64,000 nucleotides of DNA. Origin: Halohasta litorea (GTDB lineage: Archaea > Halobacteriota > Halobacteria > Halobacteriales > Haloferacaceae). The DNA lies in contig NZ_JANHDJ010000003.1 of the NCBI RefSeq assembly GCF_024494645.1, positions 124,001 to 188,000 on the forward strand. Reading direction: 5' to 3'. The stretch's first letter is position 1, and every line of letters starts with the position of its first letter. Positions 33,969-41,395 of the stretch are shown in pieces. The notes beneath the pieces were generated by a model. It was not told the DNA's origin, made no database searches, and was given only the letters and a program-made list of their open reading frames with translations. The translations under genes were made by a program, and so were the position numbers.

Positions 33969-34991
33969 CTAGTCTCTTGACAATCCGTATTCTTCATCGG
34001 TGAACAATTGGTTTATCGATTCGGATACCGAATATTTCGGAACCCAATAGAGGTTGTTTCGTGCTTTAGATATGTCGACACCGAACTCCTCGACCATCGT
34101 CTCGGCCGCTCGTGGATTCTCGACGAGTTCTACGTCGACCTCCGTTCCGAGTTCGTCCGCGGCTGCCTCACGAACGACCTCCGCAACCGACAGCACACTC
34201 ATATCCTCCTCACCTGCGACCTCATAGGTCTCCGTACCGGTAATACCGCTCTCCAGCTGCTCTAACAGCCGTTCGGCACTCCGTACATATACCCGTGCGA
34301 CATCGACAACGTGAACAAAGTTCCGTGCCTGTGTCCCTGGTTCGTACACGGTCAGCGGCTCGCCAGCAAGCGCACGGTCGACGAAGAAATTGATCACTGT
34401 CGGCTTCCGAACAGTCGTCCCGTCGACCTCATGCTCGCCATACAGATTCGATTTCAAAAACAGATGCGCCGGGAACGCACCCTCGGCGAACCCCTCGATC
34501 GTCCGCTCGCTGATCGCCTTCGTTCGACCGTACCAGTTGAGCGGGTCCCGCGGCTGGTCGGCGGTAATAGGGAACGACTGGGGATCACCAAGCACAGCCA
34601 TACTAAACGGAAACGCCATTGCAGCACTGTTTTTCCGGCAGAACCACGCGACGTTATTCGTTCCTTGAATGTTCACCTCATAAGCGAGATCGGCGTTCTC
34701 CTCGCAGTCGTCGACACCACTAATCGCCGCGAGATGGCAGACGACATCCGCACCCGCAAGCGCATCCTCCAGCCAATCCCGGTTCCGAACGTCGACGTGG
34801 TCGATCTCGACATCGCCGACCGAGTCGACCTGCCCGCGGTACTGGTTGTCGATAGCGATCAGCTCCCACTCCGGGTGAGCCTCCTGCATCTCGACGATGA
34901 CACGACTCCCGATGTAGCCGGCCGCGCCGGTGATCGCGATCGTCGGGTCGTCGATCGGTGCGTCCGTCTCCGTATCGGCATATTCAGTCAT
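33969..34991 (-). CDS. SDR-family NAD-dependent sugar-nucleotide epimerase/dehydratase
   Basis: The 340-residue extended SDR has ITGAAGYIGSRV (Rossmann GxxGxxG), VVCHLAAISGVDDCEENADLAYEVN, the active-site pair Ser in PFSMAVLGDP and YGRTK, and LKSNLYGEHEVDG. It is third in a tight operon of three SDR genes: its start overlaps the previous stop by 4 nt (ATGA). It probably makes or modifies an activated sugar for the glycan; the product sugar cannot be read from sequence. GC returns to normal here, so it lies just outside the AT-rich segment. Confidence 0.88.
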   Translation of the reverse strand: MTEYADTETDAPIDDPTIAITGAAGYIGSRVIVEMQEAHPEWELIAIDNQYRGQVDSVGDVEIDHVDVRNRDWLEDALAGADVVCHLAAISGVDDCEENADLAYEVNIQGTNNVAWFCRKNSAAMAFPFSMAVLGDPQSFPITADQPRDPLNWYGRTKAISERTIEGFAEGAFPAHLFLKSNLYGEHEVDGTTVRKPTVINFFVDRALAGEPLTVYEPGTQARNFVHVVDVARVYVRSAERLLEQLESGITGTETYEVAGEEDMSVLSVAEVVREAAADELGTEVDVELVENPRAAETMVEEFGVDISKARNNLYWVPKYSVSESINQLFTDEEYGLSRD

Positions 34992-35944
34992 ACGTTAACA
35001 GCCTTCTTGGATTGTAGTTCGTCAGCCATATCTCGAATCCCGTCTCGAAGCGTCCATTCGGGCTCGAAGCCTGTTTCGTCGAGCCGATCGAAGTTGACGT
35101 GGTAGGACGGACCGGGATGTTCGTCTTCGAGATACGTCACGTTCAGTTCGCGGTTGAGTTCCTCGCGGACGATTTCGGCGATTTCCGAGATACGGTAGTT
35201 GGCATCGTTCGAGCCGACGTTGTACACCTGCTGTGGCCACTGGTCCGGTTCCAGCGCGGCGTGAGCATAAGCACGGGCGGCATCACGAACGTGAATAAAC
35301 GGTCGCCAGTTGCTCCCGTCGCCGTAGACCGTCAGCGGTCGGTTAGTGAGTCCACGGAACACGAAGTGGTTCACCACGAGGTTGAACCGAACGCCGGGTG
35401 ACCAGCCGTAGTTGGTGCTCATCCGGAGTGCGGTGCCGTCGAACCCGTACTCGTCGACAGCCTCGCCAAGCAGTTCCTCGGCGGCGACTTTCGACTCCGC
35501 GTAGGGGTTGAGGGGGTTCTGCGGCGTTTCCTCGTCGATGTCCGTGCTTGCCGCACGCCCGTAGTTGTTACACGAGGATGCGACGACGACGTTGTCAATA
35601 CCGAACTTCCCGGCCGCGGTGAGCACGTTTTCGGTCCCGTCGCGGTTGACCGCGAATGTCTCGGCACGTCGATCGTGGGTCGAGGCCGCGCCAGTAATCG
35701 CCGCGAGATGAATCACCGCGTCGACATCTCGTGTCGCGCTTTCGACATCACCATACTCGCGGACATCTCCACGGCGGAACGTCAGTGCATCCGTCACGCT
35801 CCCAGCGAGGTTTGCTGGCGATCCCGTGACCAGCGAATCGAACACGACGACTTCGTCGACGCGAGAGTCATCGAGCAGAGATGGAACGAGCGCACTGCCG
35901 ATGTATCCACAGCCACCCGTGACGAGTACTCGAGTGTTACTCAT
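34988..35944 (-). CDS. SDR-family NAD-dependent sugar-nucleotide epimerase
   Basis: The 318-residue extended SDR has VLVTGGCGYIGSAL, VIHLAAITGAASTHDRRAE, the catalytic region SSCNNYGRAASTDIDEETP and YAESK, then GVRFNLVVNHFVFRGL and GSNWRPFIHVRDAARAY. It is the middle gene of the three-SDR operon, overlapping the upstream gene by 8 nt and the downstream gene by 4 nt. It is close to UDP-glucose 4-epimerase-like and NDP-sugar epimerase branches; exact chemistry unknown. Confidence 0.88.
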   Translation of the reverse strand: MSNTRVLVTGGCGYIGSALVPSLLDDSRVDEVVVFDSLVTGSPANLAGSVTDALTFRRGDVREYGDVESATRDVDAVIHLAAITGAASTHDRRAETFAVNRDGTENVLTAAGKFGIDNVVVASSCNNYGRAASTDIDEETPQNPLNPYAESKVAAEELLGEAVDEYGFDGTALRMSTNYGWSPGVRFNLVVNHFVFRGLTNRPLTVYGDGSNWRPFIHVRDAARAYAHAALEPDQWPQQVYNVGSNDANYRISEIAEIVREELNRELNVTYLEDEHPGPSYHVNFDRLDETGFEPEWTLRDGIRDMADELQSKKAVNV

Positions 35945-37085
35945 CGGTCAACACGCCAGGGAGGAACCGGTCTTCGTGGGCGGCGATCCGATCTTGTTCC
36001 TCGACGAGTGTCCCAAGAACGTCGCGAATACCTGCTTCCAACTCTTGACGTTGTCCCCCAACGAGTTCGAGAAACCGATCGTTTTCCATCTTCATTTTGT
36101 GCTCTTCGTCCTCGTTGCGTGGGTTCTCATAGTGTTTCACCTCGGCATCGAGATCGAACTCCGCGCCGACCTCGGCGATCGTCTCGGCGAGTTCGACGAT
36201 TGCCACGGGACGGGTCACCTGATTGTAGATGTCGATCCCGTCGTCGCCGGAGTGACCCTCCTCGACGAGTCGGACGAGGCTCTCGACGGTGTCTTCGAGA
36301 CTGACCATCGGTTTCCGCTGTTCACCCTTGCCGTAGACGGTGATCGGGTAGCCAGCGACCGCCTGCGCGCAGAACCGGTTGACGACGGTCCCGAAGTAGT
36401 AGTCGAAGTCGAATCGTGTCAGGCTGTCGTGAGCACGAGTTTCGTCGGTTTCAGTTCCGTAGACGATCGCGGTGCGAACCTCACTCATCGGGAACTCGAA
36501 CTGCGACTCGGCGAGTCGCATATTCGCTGCATCGAACGACTTCGTCTGGTGGTACCAGCTACCGCCCATCGCCGGAAACGGTACATCGTCGCTGCCGCCC
36601 TCGCGGTCGACCGATAGACCACCTTCGGGAATCGGGAAGTGAGGTGCTCCGTAAATCCCGGTCGTCGTGGTTTCGATGAAGTGTGTCTCGTCGAGTCCAC
36701 ACTCATGGAGGCCGTGGAGGAGGTTAAGATTCATCGAGATATTGTTCCGCTGAGTATACAGTGCGCGCTCGCCGTTGATCGACGAGTAGGGCGCACTCGG
36801 CTGTGAGGCCGCGTGCAGGACGGTATCGGGCTCGTGGGTGTCGAGCAGTTGGATGACGAAATCGCGGTCAGCAAGGTCGCCCTCGATGAGACTCAAATTC
36901 TCGACGGATTCGAACCGGTCTTCCGGCTCCTCGATTCGCGTCGCCGAAACGCTCCCCGATTCCGCGACCCATTCGCGTCGTGCGAAGTTGTCGACGCAGA
37001 TGACACGCTCGTCGAGTCGATCTGCCAGTCGGAGTGCAGTCGGCCAGCCCAGATACCCGTCGGCACCGGTAAGTAGTACAGACAT
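35937..37085 (-). CDS. SQD1/Agl3-like UDP-sulfoquinovose synthase family protein
   Basis: The 382-residue SDR matches the SQD1 pattern in order: TGADGYLGWPTALRLADR, HAASQPSAPYSSI, TTTTGIYGAPHFPIPEGG, MGGSWYHQTKSFDA (Tyr-x3-Lys), VRTAIVYGTETDETRAHD, DYYFGTVVNRFCAQAVAG, ITVYGKGEQRKPMVSLEDTV and YENPRNEDEEHKMK. SQD1 makes UDP-sulfoquinovose from UDP-glucose and sulfite; Sulfolobus Agl3 does this for N-glycans. The match suggests a sulfonated sugar, but related SDRs with other products exist. It is first in the SDR operon, with a TrmB-type palindrome two bases before its start codon. Confidence 0.85.
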   Translation of the reverse strand: MSVLLTGADGYLGWPTALRLADRLDERVICVDNFARREWVAESGSVSATRIEEPEDRFESVENLSLIEGDLADRDFVIQLLDTHEPDTVLHAASQPSAPYSSINGERALYTQRNNISMNLNLLHGLHECGLDETHFIETTTTGIYGAPHFPIPEGGLSVDREGGSDDVPFPAMGGSWYHQTKSFDAANMRLAESQFEFPMSEVRTAIVYGTETDETRAHDSLTRFDFDYYFGTVVNRFCAQAVAGYPITVYGKGEQRKPMVSLEDTVESLVRLVEEGHSGDDGIDIYNQVTRPVAIVELAETIAEVGAEFDLDAEVKHYENPRNEDEEHKMKMENDRFLELVGGQRQELEAGIRDVLGTLVEEQDRIAAHEDRFLPGVLTDE

Positions 37086-37086
37086 C

Positions 37087-37107
37087 GTTACTCAGAATTT
37101 GAGTAAC
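37087..37107. promoter_or_regulatory. TrmB-type operator at the SDR operon promoter
   Basis: GTTACTCA-GAATT-TGAGTAAC is a perfect palindrome with 8-bp arms. It fits TACT-N8-GAGTA, the published TrmB recognition pattern in Halobacterium. It occupies the space between a TATA-like ATTTATAA (minus strand, about 37111-37118) and the ATG at 37085, so binding would block transcription initiation. The sister site is at 38197-38215, on the other side of the TrmB-family gene. Confidence 0.7.
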
Positions 37108-37274
37108 CAATTATAAATGTATTGTGTTCTGTCTCTCAATAATGAAATCCGGACCGTACGGTAATCTACTCGGGATATTCTGGTTCGCGGTGAGCAGAAC
37201 GTTCGAAGTACGCTCCTCAGCAGTGAAGAACAGCGGAACAATCCAGACAGTGATCTCAGATACCAGACAGGTAC

Positions 37275-38123
37275 TCACACCGAGCCGACGGATCGGCTCT
37301 CGTGGTTCCAGAGGAGATCGAAATACTGCCACAATCCGGCAACGAACGCCGGGTTTTCGGTGACAGCAGCCTGTCGGAGATGGTTCGGAACTTCCTCCTG
37401 CTCGACGAGCAACAGCCCTTGTCCCGTCTCGTAGTGGAGATCCGGATCAACGAACGTCCCCCGCCACGGCAGGACTCGATCGGTGACCCGAACAGTTACC
37501 GACGGGAACTGTTCGGCGAGTACTGATCGAATCTCCTGTTGTTGACGGCTGTTTTCCGTAGTGAGGTGTTCTTGAGAGAGCATGAGAATGTTAATTATCA
37601 CGCCGCGATCGACGGCCTCTCGCATAGCAGGCCCGACGGTTTCAATATACCCGAAACTCTTAGTGAGCATACAGACCTTTTGATCGGCTTCCCGCAATAG
37701 CCGCCGTGTCTCACGCTCGCTCGGCTCGCCGACGTCGACCACGTGGAACAGATCTTCCGTCGGACTCAGTTCATCAACCGACCGATCCTGGACCGGTGTG
37801 TAGGAGTCGATGAACGACTCGGCAACGCGGTCGACATCGTGTTTGAACTGTTCGTAGGCGTCTTGTCGGTTCGTAATCGCACGGTCGACGATTTCGCTTG
37901 GGTCGTGCGGCTGGTACTGTTTCGGGCGTCCAGGAATCACTTTCACGAATCCGGCTTCCGACAGCGAGTCGAGGACACCGTAGATCCGTGCTTTCGGTAT
38001 GCCCGTCGCTTCGGCGAGATCGGGGGCAGTCGTTCGACCGAGCAATAATAGTTCTTCGAGTGCCGCTTCTTCGTACTCGGTAAGATCAAGCTTTGAAAAG
38101 AACGCATCGACGGAATCGGACAT
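37275..38123 (-). CDS. TrmB-family transcriptional regulator
   Basis: The 282-residue protein has an N-terminal TrmB winged helix (about residues 8-75: LDLTEYEEAALEELLLLGR, DLAEATGIPKARIYGVLDSL, GRPKQYQPHDP) followed by an amphipathic helix and a C-terminal PLD-like regulatory domain (KVCMLTKSFGYIETVGPAMREA). TrmB proteins sense sugars and control sugar metabolism. Two TACT-N8-GAGTA palindromes flank the gene, one at the SDR operon and one at the divergent small gene, so these are likely direct targets. ATG at 38123 (MSDSVDAFFSKLDLT) is preferred over 38168; a TATA-like ACTTATC lies about 25 nt before it. Confidence 0.9.
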   Translation of the reverse strand: MSDSVDAFFSKLDLTEYEEAALEELLLLGRTTAPDLAEATGIPKARIYGVLDSLSEAGFVKVIPGRPKQYQPHDPSEIVDRAITNRQDAYEQFKHDVDRVAESFIDSYTPVQDRSVDELSPTEDLFHVVDVGEPSERETRRLLREADQKVCMLTKSFGYIETVGPAMREAVDRGVIINILMLSQEHLTTENSRQQQEIRSVLAEQFPSVTVRVTDRVLPWRGTFVDPDLHYETGQGLLLVEQEEVPNHLRQAAVTENPAFVAGLWQYFDLLWNHESRSVGSV

Positions 38124-38171
38124 AGTAGGCCGTCCTCGTGCAACGGATAAGTAGATGGTGTTACGCAAAAG

Positions 38172-38180
38172 TTTTATATT
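38172..38180 (+). promoter_or_regulatory. TATA box of the 37-residue gene
   Basis: TTTTATATT is centred about 32 nt before the ATG at 38208. The predicted transcript start falls inside the TrmB-type palindrome. The reverse reading AATATAAAA could also serve the divergent regulator gene. Confidence 0.55.
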
Positions 38181-38196
38181 TCACCCCTACACAACT

Positions 38197-38215
38197 TTAC
38201 TCAGAATATGAGTAA
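38197..38215. promoter_or_regulatory. TrmB-type operator overlapping a start codon
   Basis: TTACTCA-GAATA-TGAGTAA has perfect 7-bp arms and fits TACT-N8-GAGTA. It differs from the site at 37087-37107 by one base in the spacer and by the outermost arm base. The ATG of the 37-residue gene (38208-38210) is inside it. It is about 75 bp upstream of the TrmB-family start, so autoregulation is possible too. Confidence 0.7.
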
Positions 38216-38321
38216 CCAAAAAGGGCGGGAACAAACCGAGGAAACATATCTGTCCGAACTGCCGGATGGTGCGGGCTGTACGGAGATCTGGGAACACCTT
38301 TCGGAGCAGCGCGACGAATAA
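38208..38321 (+). CDS. 37-residue small protein under a TrmB-type operator
   Basis: The frame reads MSNQKGREQTEETYLSELP, then DGAGCTEIWEHLSEQRDE. It is acidic with one Cys and no membrane segment. The sentence-like motif GCTEIWEHLSEQR resembles small haloarchaeal proteins I have seen, but I cannot name a family. A TATA box at about -32 and the palindrome over the start codon support a real leaderless gene. It is divergent from the TrmB-family gene and 63 nt before glmU, which has its own TATA-like box. Function unknown; a sugar-regulated role is inferred from control only. Confidence 0.6.
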   Translation: MSNQKGREQTEETYLSELPDGAGCTEIWEHLSEQRDE

Positions 38322-38384: not shown

Positions 38385-39599
38385 ATGCCACATACACCAT
38401 CTTCATCTGCCAGCCGCCCGCACTCAGCAATCGTGTTGGCCGCCGGCGAGGGAATACGGCTTCGCCCCCTGACGGCAAACCGGCCGAAACCGATGCTCCC
38501 GGCCGGAACACGCCCGATTCTCGAACACGTTCTCAATGCGCTGATCGATGCTGGCGTCGACGACATCCATCTCGTCGTCGGTTACCAAGCCAATCGGGTC
38601 CGATCACATTTCGGACCGACCTACCGTGATGTTCCGATTACCTACCATACACAGGACAACCAACTCGGGAGCGGCCACGCGCTGCTCCAGGCTCGGGATG
38701 GGCCCGACGGGTCGTTTCTACTCGTCAACGGCGACCAGATCATCGACCATCGGATCGTCGAAGCGGTCGGTGATGCCCACGAGACCGCCGGGACGCTGGC
38801 GGTCGTCGAGGGGCCCGAAGCAGTCGACTACGGTGCGGTCCATCTCGACGGCGACGAGGTGACGGAACTCATCGAACAGCCCGCCAGCGGCGATTTTCGG
38901 TTATTCAACGCTGGGGTGTACGCGTTCACCCAACAGATCTTCGAAACGCTCGATACGCTGTCAGTCGAGCGTGGTGAACTCCCGCTGACCGCCGCTATCC
39001 AGCAGTTGATCGGCGACCGTTACGACATTCGTGCCGTTCGGACCGACCATTTCTGGATGGATGCGACCCACCCATGGGACCTGTTGTCGTTGTCCCGGGA
39101 ACTGCTCACCCGGGGGTGGGTCGACGCCCCAGCCGTCGACAGTGACATTTACGTCGACGACGCCGCACACGTCCACCCCGAGGCGACGTTAGTTGGCCCA
39201 GTCGTCGTCGACAGCGACGCCGTGATCGAGCCCGGAGCAGTCGTCGGCCCCTACGCCGCCATCGGCGCGAGTTCGACAATCGGCTCGGGATCAGTCCTCC
39301 GTGATGTCGTCATCGACACCGACACCACTATCGGCCCCAACACTACTGCAATCGAACTGGTCGCCGGACAGGGCTGTGTGATCGGTGCCGGACTCACCGC
39401 CGGGGGTGGCCCAGCCGATGTCGTCCTGGACGACCAAGTCTACAGCGACGTCGACCTCGGCGGTGTGATCGCCGACCGTGTCGACGTCGGTGGCGGTGCG
39501 ACGCTTGAACCAGGAGCCCTAATCGGCCCCGAAGCAACAGTCGGAACCGGCGTCGTCGTCCGCGGCCGTATCGATGCCGGCAGCGAGGTGGTCCGCTGA
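38385..39599 (+). CDS. glmU: Bifunctional sugar-1-phosphate nucleotidyltransferase/acetyltransferase, GlmU-like
   Basis: The 404-residue protein has an N-terminal nucleotidyltransferase (AIVLAAGEGIRLRPLTANRPKP, LVNGDQIID) and a C-terminal left-handed beta-helix of hexapeptide repeats (from about residue 255: HVHPEATLVGPVVVDSDAVI and on). In archaea such proteins make UDP-GlcNAc from glucosamine-1-phosphate. The next gene, glmS, overlaps its stop by one base (TGATG) and makes glucosamine-6-phosphate, which fits. The acceptor side is also seen in glucose-1-phosphate thymidylyltransferases, so the substrate is strong inference from context. Confidence 0.88.
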   Translation: MPHTPSSSASRPHSAIVLAAGEGIRLRPLTANRPKPMLPAGTRPILEHVLNALIDAGVDDIHLVVGYQANRVRSHFGPTYRDVPITYHTQDNQLGSGHALLQARDGPDGSFLLVNGDQIIDHRIVEAVGDAHETAGTLAVVEGPEAVDYGAVHLDGDEVTELIEQPASGDFRLFNAGVYAFTQQIFETLDTLSVERGELPLTAAIQQLIGDRYDIRAVRTDHFWMDATHPWDLLSLSRELLTRGWVDAPAVDSDIYVDDAAHVHPEATLVGPVVVDSDAVIEPGAVVGPYAAIGASSTIGSGSVLRDVVIDTDTTIGPNTTAIELVAGQGCVIGAGLTAGGGPADVVLDDQVYSDVDLGGVIADRVDVGGGATLEPGALIGPEATVGTGVVVRGRIDAGSEVVR

Positions 39600-41395
39600 T
39601 GTGTGGGATCGTCGGCTGTATCGGCCGCGGCGACCACACTGTCGACGTCCTGATGGACGGGCTGCGGAGCCTCGAATACCGCGGCTATGATTCGGCCGGG
39701 ATCGCCGTCGGTCCCTCAATGGAGGTCCTCCGCAAGTCCGGCGAACTCGACGCGCTCACGGAGGTCGTCGAGGCCAACGGGCCGACCGGCACCTACGGGA
39801 TCGGCCACACCCGCTGGAGCACCCACGGCCCACCGAATGATCGAAACGCCCACCCACATACCGACGAGACCGGTCGGGTCGCTGTGGTCCACAATGGCAT
39901 TATCGAAAACTACGGCGAACTCAAGGCCGACCTCCAAGCAACGGGTGTTACCTTCACCAGCGACACCGACACCGAGGTCGTCCCACACCTGATCGCCCAA
40001 GCGATCGACGCCGGTGCCGACCCCGAAACCGCTTTCCACGACACGGTCGACCGCTTGGAGGGCAGCTACGCCATCGCAGCGATTATCGAGGGCAGCGAGA
40101 CCGTCTATGCTGCTCGACAGGGCTCGCCACTCGTCGTCGGTGTCGGCGATGGCTGTACCTATCTGGCAAGCGACGTGCCAGCGTTCGTCGAACACACCCG
40201 CGATGTCGTCTTCCTTAACGACGGCCACCGGGTGATCGCCACAGCCGACGGCTACACCGTACTCGACGGGGATCGCGAGCCGGTCGACGTCGAGATCGAG
40301 ACCGTCTCCTATACGGCCGAAGCCACCGGGAAGAGTGGCTACGACCACTATATGCTCAAAGAGATCCACGAACAGCCGACTGCACTCCGGCAGTGTTTCT
40401 CCGGCCGCAGCGACGCCCTCGAAGGCACAGTGACACTGGAGGAGATCGATGGAATTCCACAACCGAACGCGGTCCAGTTCGTCGCCTGCGGGACCTCCTA
40501 TCACGCTGCCCTCTACGGCGCGGCGATCCTCCGAGAGATGGGGATTCCGGCCGAAACGTATCTCGCCAGCGAGTACGCGCTGTCGCCGCCGCCCGTCTCG
40601 CTGGGGACGCTCGTCGTGGGCATCACCCAGAGCGGCGAAACAGCCGACACGCTCGCCGCGCTCCGGGATGCCAAAGGCCGCGGTGTCAGCACACTCGCGC
40701 TCACAAACACGGTCAACTCGACGGCCGCCCGTGAGTGTGATCACGCGGTCTACATCCGCGCCGGACCAGAAATCGGGGTCGCCGCGACCAAGACCTTTTC
40801 TTCGCAGCTCGTGGGGTGTAATCTACTCGCCGAGGAGCTGGTCGATGGGCCACGGGATCTCCGCCCGCTCATCGAGTCGCTTCGGAATCTGCCGGACGAT
40901 GTCCAGTCGATCCTGGATACCTCGGCCGCCGAAGAGCTCGTCGAAGAGTATGCCGACAGCGAGGCCTACTTCTTCATCGGCCGCGGGACGAACGTCGCGG
41001 TCGCCCTGGAAGGCGCACTCAAATGCAAAGAGATCAGCTACGAACACGCCGAGGGGTTCCCGGCGGGCGAACTCAAACACGGCCCGCTTGCGCTCGTGAC
41101 GCCCGACACGCCGGTGTTCGCAGTTGTCACTGGTGACGACGAGCGTGCCCGGAAGACGCTCGGCAATATCAAGGAAGTCCAAGCTCGTGGGGCACCGGTA
41201 ATTGCGGTCACGGATGGCCAATCCGACGCCGCCGAGATCGCTGATGAGACGCTCATGATTCCAGAAACTGACGAACGGGCGGCTCCTGTTCTCGCCAACA
41301 TCCAACTACAGTTGTTCTCGTACTATCTGGCCAATGCGCTGGGTCGACCCATCGACAAACCGCGGAACCTCGCCAAAAGCGTGACTGTCGAATAG
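39599..41395 (+). CDS. glmS: Glutamine-fructose-6-phosphate aminotransferase (isomerizing)
   Basis: The 598-residue enzyme forms glucosamine-6-phosphate, the entry to UDP-GlcNAc. The N-terminal Ntn glutaminase has catalytic Cys2 (MCGIVGCIG), LRSLEYRGYDSAGIAV and HTRWSTHGPP. Two SIS domains follow, with CGTSYHAALYGAA, ITQSGETADTLAALR and FIGRGTNVAVALEGALKCKE, and the ending PIDKPRNLAKSVTVE is the family hallmark. It is translationally coupled to glmU and convergent with aglF (3-nt gap). Confidence 0.97.
   Translation: MCGIVGCIGRGDHTVDVLMDGLRSLEYRGYDSAGIAVGPSMEVLRKSGELDALTEVVEANGPTGTYGIGHTRWSTHGPPNDRNAHPHTDETGRVAVVHNGIIENYGELKADLQATGVTFTSDTDTEVVPHLIAQAIDAGADPETAFHDTVDRLEGSYAIAAIIEGSETVYAARQGSPLVVGVGDGCTYLASDVPAFVEHTRDVVFLNDGHRVIATADGYTVLDGDREPVDVEIETVSYTAEATGKSGYDHYMLKEIHEQPTALRQCFSGRSDALEGTVTLEEIDGIPQPNAVQFVACGTSYHAALYGAAILREMGIPAETYLASEYALSPPPVSLGTLVVGITQSGETADTLAALRDAKGRGVSTLALTNTVNSTAARECDHAVYIRAGPEIGVAATKTFSSQLVGCNLLAEELVDGPRDLRPLIESLRNLPDDVQSILDTSAAEELVEEYADSEAYFFIGRGTNVAVALEGALKCKEISYEHAEGFPAGELKHGPLALVTPDTPVFAVVTGDDERARKTLGNIKEVQARGAPVIAVTDGQSDAAEIADETLMIPETDERAAPVLANIQLQLFSYYLANALGRPIDKPRNLAKSVTVE

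Follow-up and report, generated by a model that had tools for sequence, protein, structure and literature searches.

Transcription factors of the TrmB family repress when bound downstream of a TATA box and activate when bound upstream of it (PMC10817205). The haloarchaeal proteins VNG1451C of Halobacterium salinarum and TrmBHar of Haloarcula hispanica are global, glucose-sensing regulators of gluconeogenesis, ∼350–360 aa long; they contain a sugar-binding module, act on many targets and recognize the pattern TACT-N7-8-GAGTA (PMC3794607, PMC4158304). Of the seven contacts that TrmB makes with sugar, six fall within residues 305–326 (Asn305–Glu326 of Pfu TrmB; PMC4158304). In Thermococcales, TrmB is instead a local repressor encoded beside the mal operon, and TrmBL2 (264 aa) is an abundant chromatin protein that covers coding and intergenic DNA. 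On the enzymatic side, an operon of SqdB and two GalE-like genes is known from Haloquadratum walsbyi, where a role in sulfolipid was proposed (PMC1544339). Haloarchaeal SQD1-like enzymes form a distant cluster IV, and Arg101 and Met145 are essential in the Sulfolobus enzyme Agl3 (PMC4388408). Here, we describe a Halohasta litorea locus that joins these two themes; our literature search found no paper describing its 282-aa TrmB-family protein or the operator next to it.

The preliminary description of the window (the whole 64,000-nucleotide stretch of H. litorea DNA that was analysed) placed two near-identical palindromes on either side of a TrmB-family gene, one between the TATA box and start codon of an SQD1-like operon and the other over the start codon of a small gene. 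All of these placements hold (Table 1). The core of Operator 1, TTACTCAGAATTTGAGTAA, occupies 37088–37106 and grows to 21 bp with the flanking G/C; it is enclosed by the TATA-like ATTTATAAT and the ATG at 37085. Operator 2, TTACTCAGAATATGAGTAA, spans the start codon (ATG at 38208) of a gene of 37 codons, whose TATA-like element is TTTTATAT. The exact pattern TTACTCA-N5-TGAGTAA is found twice in the window and in none of 100 dinucleotide-preserving shuffles. A scan of the whole 3.81 Mb genome, which the preliminary description had proposed as a check, likewise returned just these two copies, both flanking the regulator gene, and no random scatter. Looser patterns behave differently: allowing two mismatches gave 9 sites in the genome against 13 for the reversed pattern, and TACT-N8-GAGTA gave 11 against 11–16 in controls. 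Since both counts are at background level in H. litorea, such loose scans cannot define a regulon, and only the exact pattern or its R/Y-relaxed form is informative. The fit of both sites to TACT-N8-GAGTA, although correctly noted before, does not imply binding by global TrmB, since the operator also occurs where that TrmB is missing. Across promoters, the operator consensus is GTTACTCR-N5-YGAGTAAC.

Table 1. Features of the H. litorea regulator locus, in window coordinates
Feature	Position	Strand	Remarks
SDR3	33969-34991	-	GalE-like SDR, 340 aa; overlaps SDR2, same operon
SDR2	34988-35944	-	GalE/dehydratase-like SDR, 318 aa; overlaps SDR1, same operon
SDR1	35937-37085	-	UDP-sugar enzyme resembling SQD1/SqdB, 382 aa; leads the target operon; 235 bits to 1qrr
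Operator 1	37087-37107	.	GTTACTCA-GAATT-TGAGTAAC; after the TATA box of the SqdB-like operon, before its ATG
TATA-like element of SqdB-like operon	37110-37118	-	ATTTATAAT; from sequence
TrmB-family regulator	37275-38123	-	282 aa; wHTH, coiled helix and PLD-like domain; PF01978 E 2.6e-18
TATA-like element of microprotein	38172-38179	+	TTTTATAT; from sequence
Operator 2	38197-38215	.	TTACTCA-GAATA-TGAGTAA; over microprotein start codon, upstream of regulator
Conserved microprotein	38208-38321	+	37 aa, MSNQKGREQTEETYLSELPDGAGCTEIWEHLSEQRDE; invariant D-G-x-G-C-x-E-x-W and R

The regulator is a genuine TrmB-family protein with a TrmBL2-like build. Its N-terminal winged HTH scores 66.1 bits against PF01978 (cut-off 25.6), and the DNA-recognition tyrosine of the family, Y48 here, is invariant among orthologs. 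Scores against the sugar-sensing equivalogs are far below their cut-offs (NF047392, 42.9 bits against 500; NF040851, 42.5 against 600), as is that against the TrmBL2 equivalog (49.5 against 530). An AlphaFold model built with 68 orthologs (pLDDT 90) finds its closest fold in TrmBL2 (5box, Z 17.5 over 255 residues, with a high rmsd that stems from domain orientation), and the architecture is that of TrmBL2, a wHTH and a PLD-like domain without the sugar subdomain. Model residues 125–280 of 282 align to residues 110–242 of 2f5t (Z 14.6), which leaves none to cover 2f5t 243–338, the sugar-contact subdomain. The suggestion that the regulator is sugar-responsive is therefore not supported: this TrmBL2-like protein has no counterpart of TrmB residues 305–326. 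The C-terminal domain nonetheless retains many invariant residues (including P219, R221, G222, D226, R250, T255 and N257), which suggests that the PLD-like domain likely binds a ligand.

Comparative genomics ties the palindrome to this regulator and to SDR1. Among 392 Halobacteriales genomes (regulator homologs counted at E up to 1e-30), the exact motif occurs in 95, the regulator in 137, and SDR1 in 161; 94 of the 95 motif-bearing genomes encode the regulator and all 95 encode SDR1, while the reversed-motif control appears in a single genome of the 392. Within one genus (g2), the motif is present in all eight regulator-bearing genomes and in none of the 24 others. A relaxed operator, with up to two mismatches allowed and with at least 20 of the 22 regulator-bearing genomes lacking the exact motif, precedes SDR1 in 22/22 genomes with the regulator versus 1/18 without it; in one promoter (L225) the best-scoring copy is 91 nt upstream of SDR1, with a near-copy at the start codon. 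A profile search of the regulator-less SDR1 genomes found no close regulator. On the SDR1 tree, regulator presence changes nine times, and at least five of these changes have good branch support. The operator goes with the regulator in 4.8 of 5 independent pairs and never in reverse (p 0.06, with few pairs). The lone exception among the 18 (G150, L247) has a perfect operator before SDR1 and a best regulator homolog at only E 1e-22, possibly reflecting a recent loss or a substitute regulator. In another genome (G348, L065), the regulator homolog carries in-frame stops (C1:2351639-2352115), and the operator before the adjoining SDR1 is intact.

The placement of the operator is constrained as well. 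In 76 distinct SDR1 promoters, a set partly chosen by motif, the operator ends 0–5 nt from the start codon (2–3 nt in 69), and a TATA-like AT-rich box is conserved ∼9–17 nt 5′ of it. At loci fetched by the regulator alone, 34 of 35 SDR1 genes have an operator with at most two mismatches. Haloarcula-like genomes encode the SDR1 operon far from the regulator, and the operator still stands directly before SDR1. At the other target, an equivalent of Operator 2 marks the microprotein start in most regulator loci; it persists where the microprotein is unlinked from the regulator (L176, and L179 at a distance of 130 kb) and where the microprotein diverges from SDR1 (L151). The relaxed operator occurs 36 times in 30 genomes, against none for the control, and the inspected sites precede SDR1 or the microprotein with one exception. 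The predicted regulon essentially consists of the SDR operon and microprotein transcription units.

We consider it very probable that the 282-aa protein is a dedicated, pathway-specific regulator of both palindromes that most likely represses the SDR1 operon and the microprotein. In the proposed mechanism, a regulator dimer would bind GTTACTCR-N5-YGAGTAAC at one site that separates the TATA box of the SqdB-like SDR operon from its first ATG and at another on the start codon of the microprotein gene, divergent from its own. Binding would keep both units silent until a ligand of the PLD-like domain released the protein. Repression is the most likely outcome, judged by site position, because both sites cover the point where transcription of leaderless genes is expected to begin; taken with the repression by TrmB-family proteins downstream of TATA boxes, this geometry predicts it for SDR1 and the microprotein alike. 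The earlier proposal of a local repressor thus fares well as to local control, given the co-occurrence, the fixed position and the absence of the operator without the regulator, and its repressive sense is predicted from where the sites lie. Overall, the local-regulator reading is well supported by these comparisons of sequence.

The regulator might instead activate at one or both sites, or act mainly on its own gene, with the microprotein a by-product of the divergent promoter. TrmB proteins can activate from upstream positions, and Operator 2 is upstream of the regulator's TATA-like element. This location makes autoregulation possible, and the role of Operator 2 could also be activation of the regulator. 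At SDR1, however, the operator follows the TATA box and abuts the start codon in 76/76 promoters, Operator 2 stays with the microprotein even when this is unlinked from the regulator, and the microprotein is conserved at the protein level. We thus regard activation or predominant autoregulation as unlikely.

A second alternative, which we consider very improbable, is that the palindromes are operators of the global glucose-sensing TrmB and that the neighbouring TrmB-family gene is incidental. The sites do match the published pattern and H. litorea does encode a canonical TrmB, but the NF047392 survey finds canonical TrmB in 330 of the 392 genomes, whereas the motif is far rarer and tracks the 282-aa regulator; global TrmB is thereby rejected as the explanation of the motif distribution. 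Six genomes without canonical TrmB (G076, G153, G222, G011, G012 and G022) keep the operator. Moreover, none of the 15 ChIP peaks of Haloarcula hispanica TrmB is at an SqdB/SDR operon (PMC10817205 Table 2), a comparison relevant only if that strain carries the operator. That the palindromes are a conserved leader or start-codon sequence rather than protein-binding sites is scarcely credible: Operator 2 does overlap microprotein codons 1–3 (ATG AGT AA), but the same palindrome lies outside coding sequence 2–3 nt before SDR1, its half-sites are conserved across SDR1 promoters while the 5-bp spacer varies, and genomes that lack the regulator have lost the palindrome though they retain SDR1.

The target operon probably serves a sulfonated surface sugar. 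SDR1 aligns end to end with Arabidopsis SQD1 (1qrr), and the SDR catalytic triad T/Y/K is invariant in ∼114 haloarchaeal SDR1 sequences. Compared with known UDP-sulfoquinovose synthases it is nonetheless divergent: it scores 330.9 bits against NF041015, under the cut-off of 575, and unlike Agl3, the haloarchaeal set has Pro and Thr throughout at the positions of Arg101 and Met145. UDP-sulfoquinovose is the likely, though not certain, predicted product. It could plausibly feed N-glycans, as the preliminary description supposed, with use in lipid as the alternative. For sulfoquinovosamine, which Haloarcula glycans may contain, our literature search returned no support. Several neighbours hint at an amino-sugar product. 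In H. litorea, the genes after that of the microprotein (38385-41395) encode a GlmU-like nucleotidyltransferase and GlmS, both of which also adjoin SDR1 in two other loci (L231 and L247), and in one genome (G208, L188) the operator precedes a sugar nucleotidyltransferase, the single exception among the relaxed sites inspected.

The microprotein defines a family of its own. Its 74 different sequences share the consensus HLxDVxDGxGCxEIWExLSExR; across 25 aligned members, the residues D, G, G, C, E, W and R never vary. Pfam and NCBIfam contain no family for it. The AlphaFold model consists of two short helices only (pLDDT 79). Every one of 30 haloarchaeal genomes tested encodes a member; in H. 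litorea the best match is at this locus (E 1e-18). In regulator-less genomes, the microprotein is near SDR1 in 9 of 18 cases and directly upstream of or overlapping it in one genus (g46). Because it keeps the operator when unlinked and stays near SDR1 without the regulator, the microprotein appears to follow SDR1 and not the regulator, and its functional partner is most likely the SqdB-like pathway, not the regulator. The small Haloarcula hispanica TrmB targets HAH_0188 and HAH_2805 were considered as possible equivalents, but gene context does not support this: HAH_2805 is divergent from ribC, whereas in Haloarcula the microprotein gene diverges from that of the regulator.

Paralogs away from SDR1 have a different setting. 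In 21 of 24 such loci, a gene for a ferredoxin-dependent nitrite/sulfite reductase lies no more than 1.5 kb from the paralog, and a DUF7119 gene recurs in the same neighbourhood. H. litorea itself has a 71-aa paralog (L168/L283, C23:424264-424359, - strand) adjoining both a nitrite/sulfite reductase and a DUF7119 gene. The best model for the neighbouring reductase is ferredoxin-nitrite reductase, below cut-off, so it could be a nitrite reductase. We infer that sulfite may be the common link between the SDR1 copy and the reductase paralog. More speculatively, the family might handle sulfite or other sulfur species through the GxGC cysteine, with a housekeeping paralog serving the reductase, an operator-controlled copy serving the SqdB-like enzyme, and the TrmBL2-like regulator sensing not a simple sugar but the status of sulfur or nucleotide sugars. 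We rate this full scheme as possible but doubtful.

Two further palindromes were noted in the H. litorea genome. One, TACTCT-N5-AGAGTA (C28:17207-17223, L285), lies between divergent phosphomannomutase-like and sugar-1-phosphate nucleotidyltransferase genes and is a candidate site for another TrmB-family protein. The other, TATTTACT-N8-AGTAAATA (C32; L018 position 2627), is close to the gene of a 360-aa TrmB paralog, next to which a solute-binding protein is encoded.

These results, obtained purely by comparison, define a haloarchaeal regulon in which a single regulator and a single 21-bp operator serve two targets, in a constant geometry from which repression is predicted. They give the SqdB-like operon, present in two-fifths of the genomes surveyed (161/392), a putative specific switch open to testing in Haloarcula and Halorubrum, which are culturable, and they link a microprotein family lacking a Pfam or NCBIfam entry to sulfite-related genes. 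Dedicated TrmB-family control with a microprotein partner appears to be new, and the pairing appears to be kept across haloarchaea.

The known systems each share part of this arrangement. VNG1451C and TrmBHar have the same TrmB wHTH and TACT...AGTA half-sites, but the present regulator has 282 aa, no sugar-binding module, about two targets and a 43-bit match to NF047392 (cut-off 500). The Pyrococcus/Thermococcus mal-operon TrmB is likewise encoded beside its target operon and uses a palindromic promoter operator, TACT-N3-AGTA; it differs in spacing (N3, here N8), binds maltose/trehalose, and targets transporters. The H. walsbyi sqdB-galE-galE operon is the same three-gene SDR operon, and the locus of strain J07HQW1 (L164) carries the operator, whereas the regulator, operator and microprotein are not described in the operon paper (PMC1544339). 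Finally, TrmBL2 shares the wHTH, long helix and PLD-like domain without a C-terminal sugar subdomain. A dedicated local regulator thus has the same build, a point relevant to what the PLD-like domain senses; here the build is associated not with non-specific chromatin binding but with a specific palindrome, conserved and present about twice per genome.
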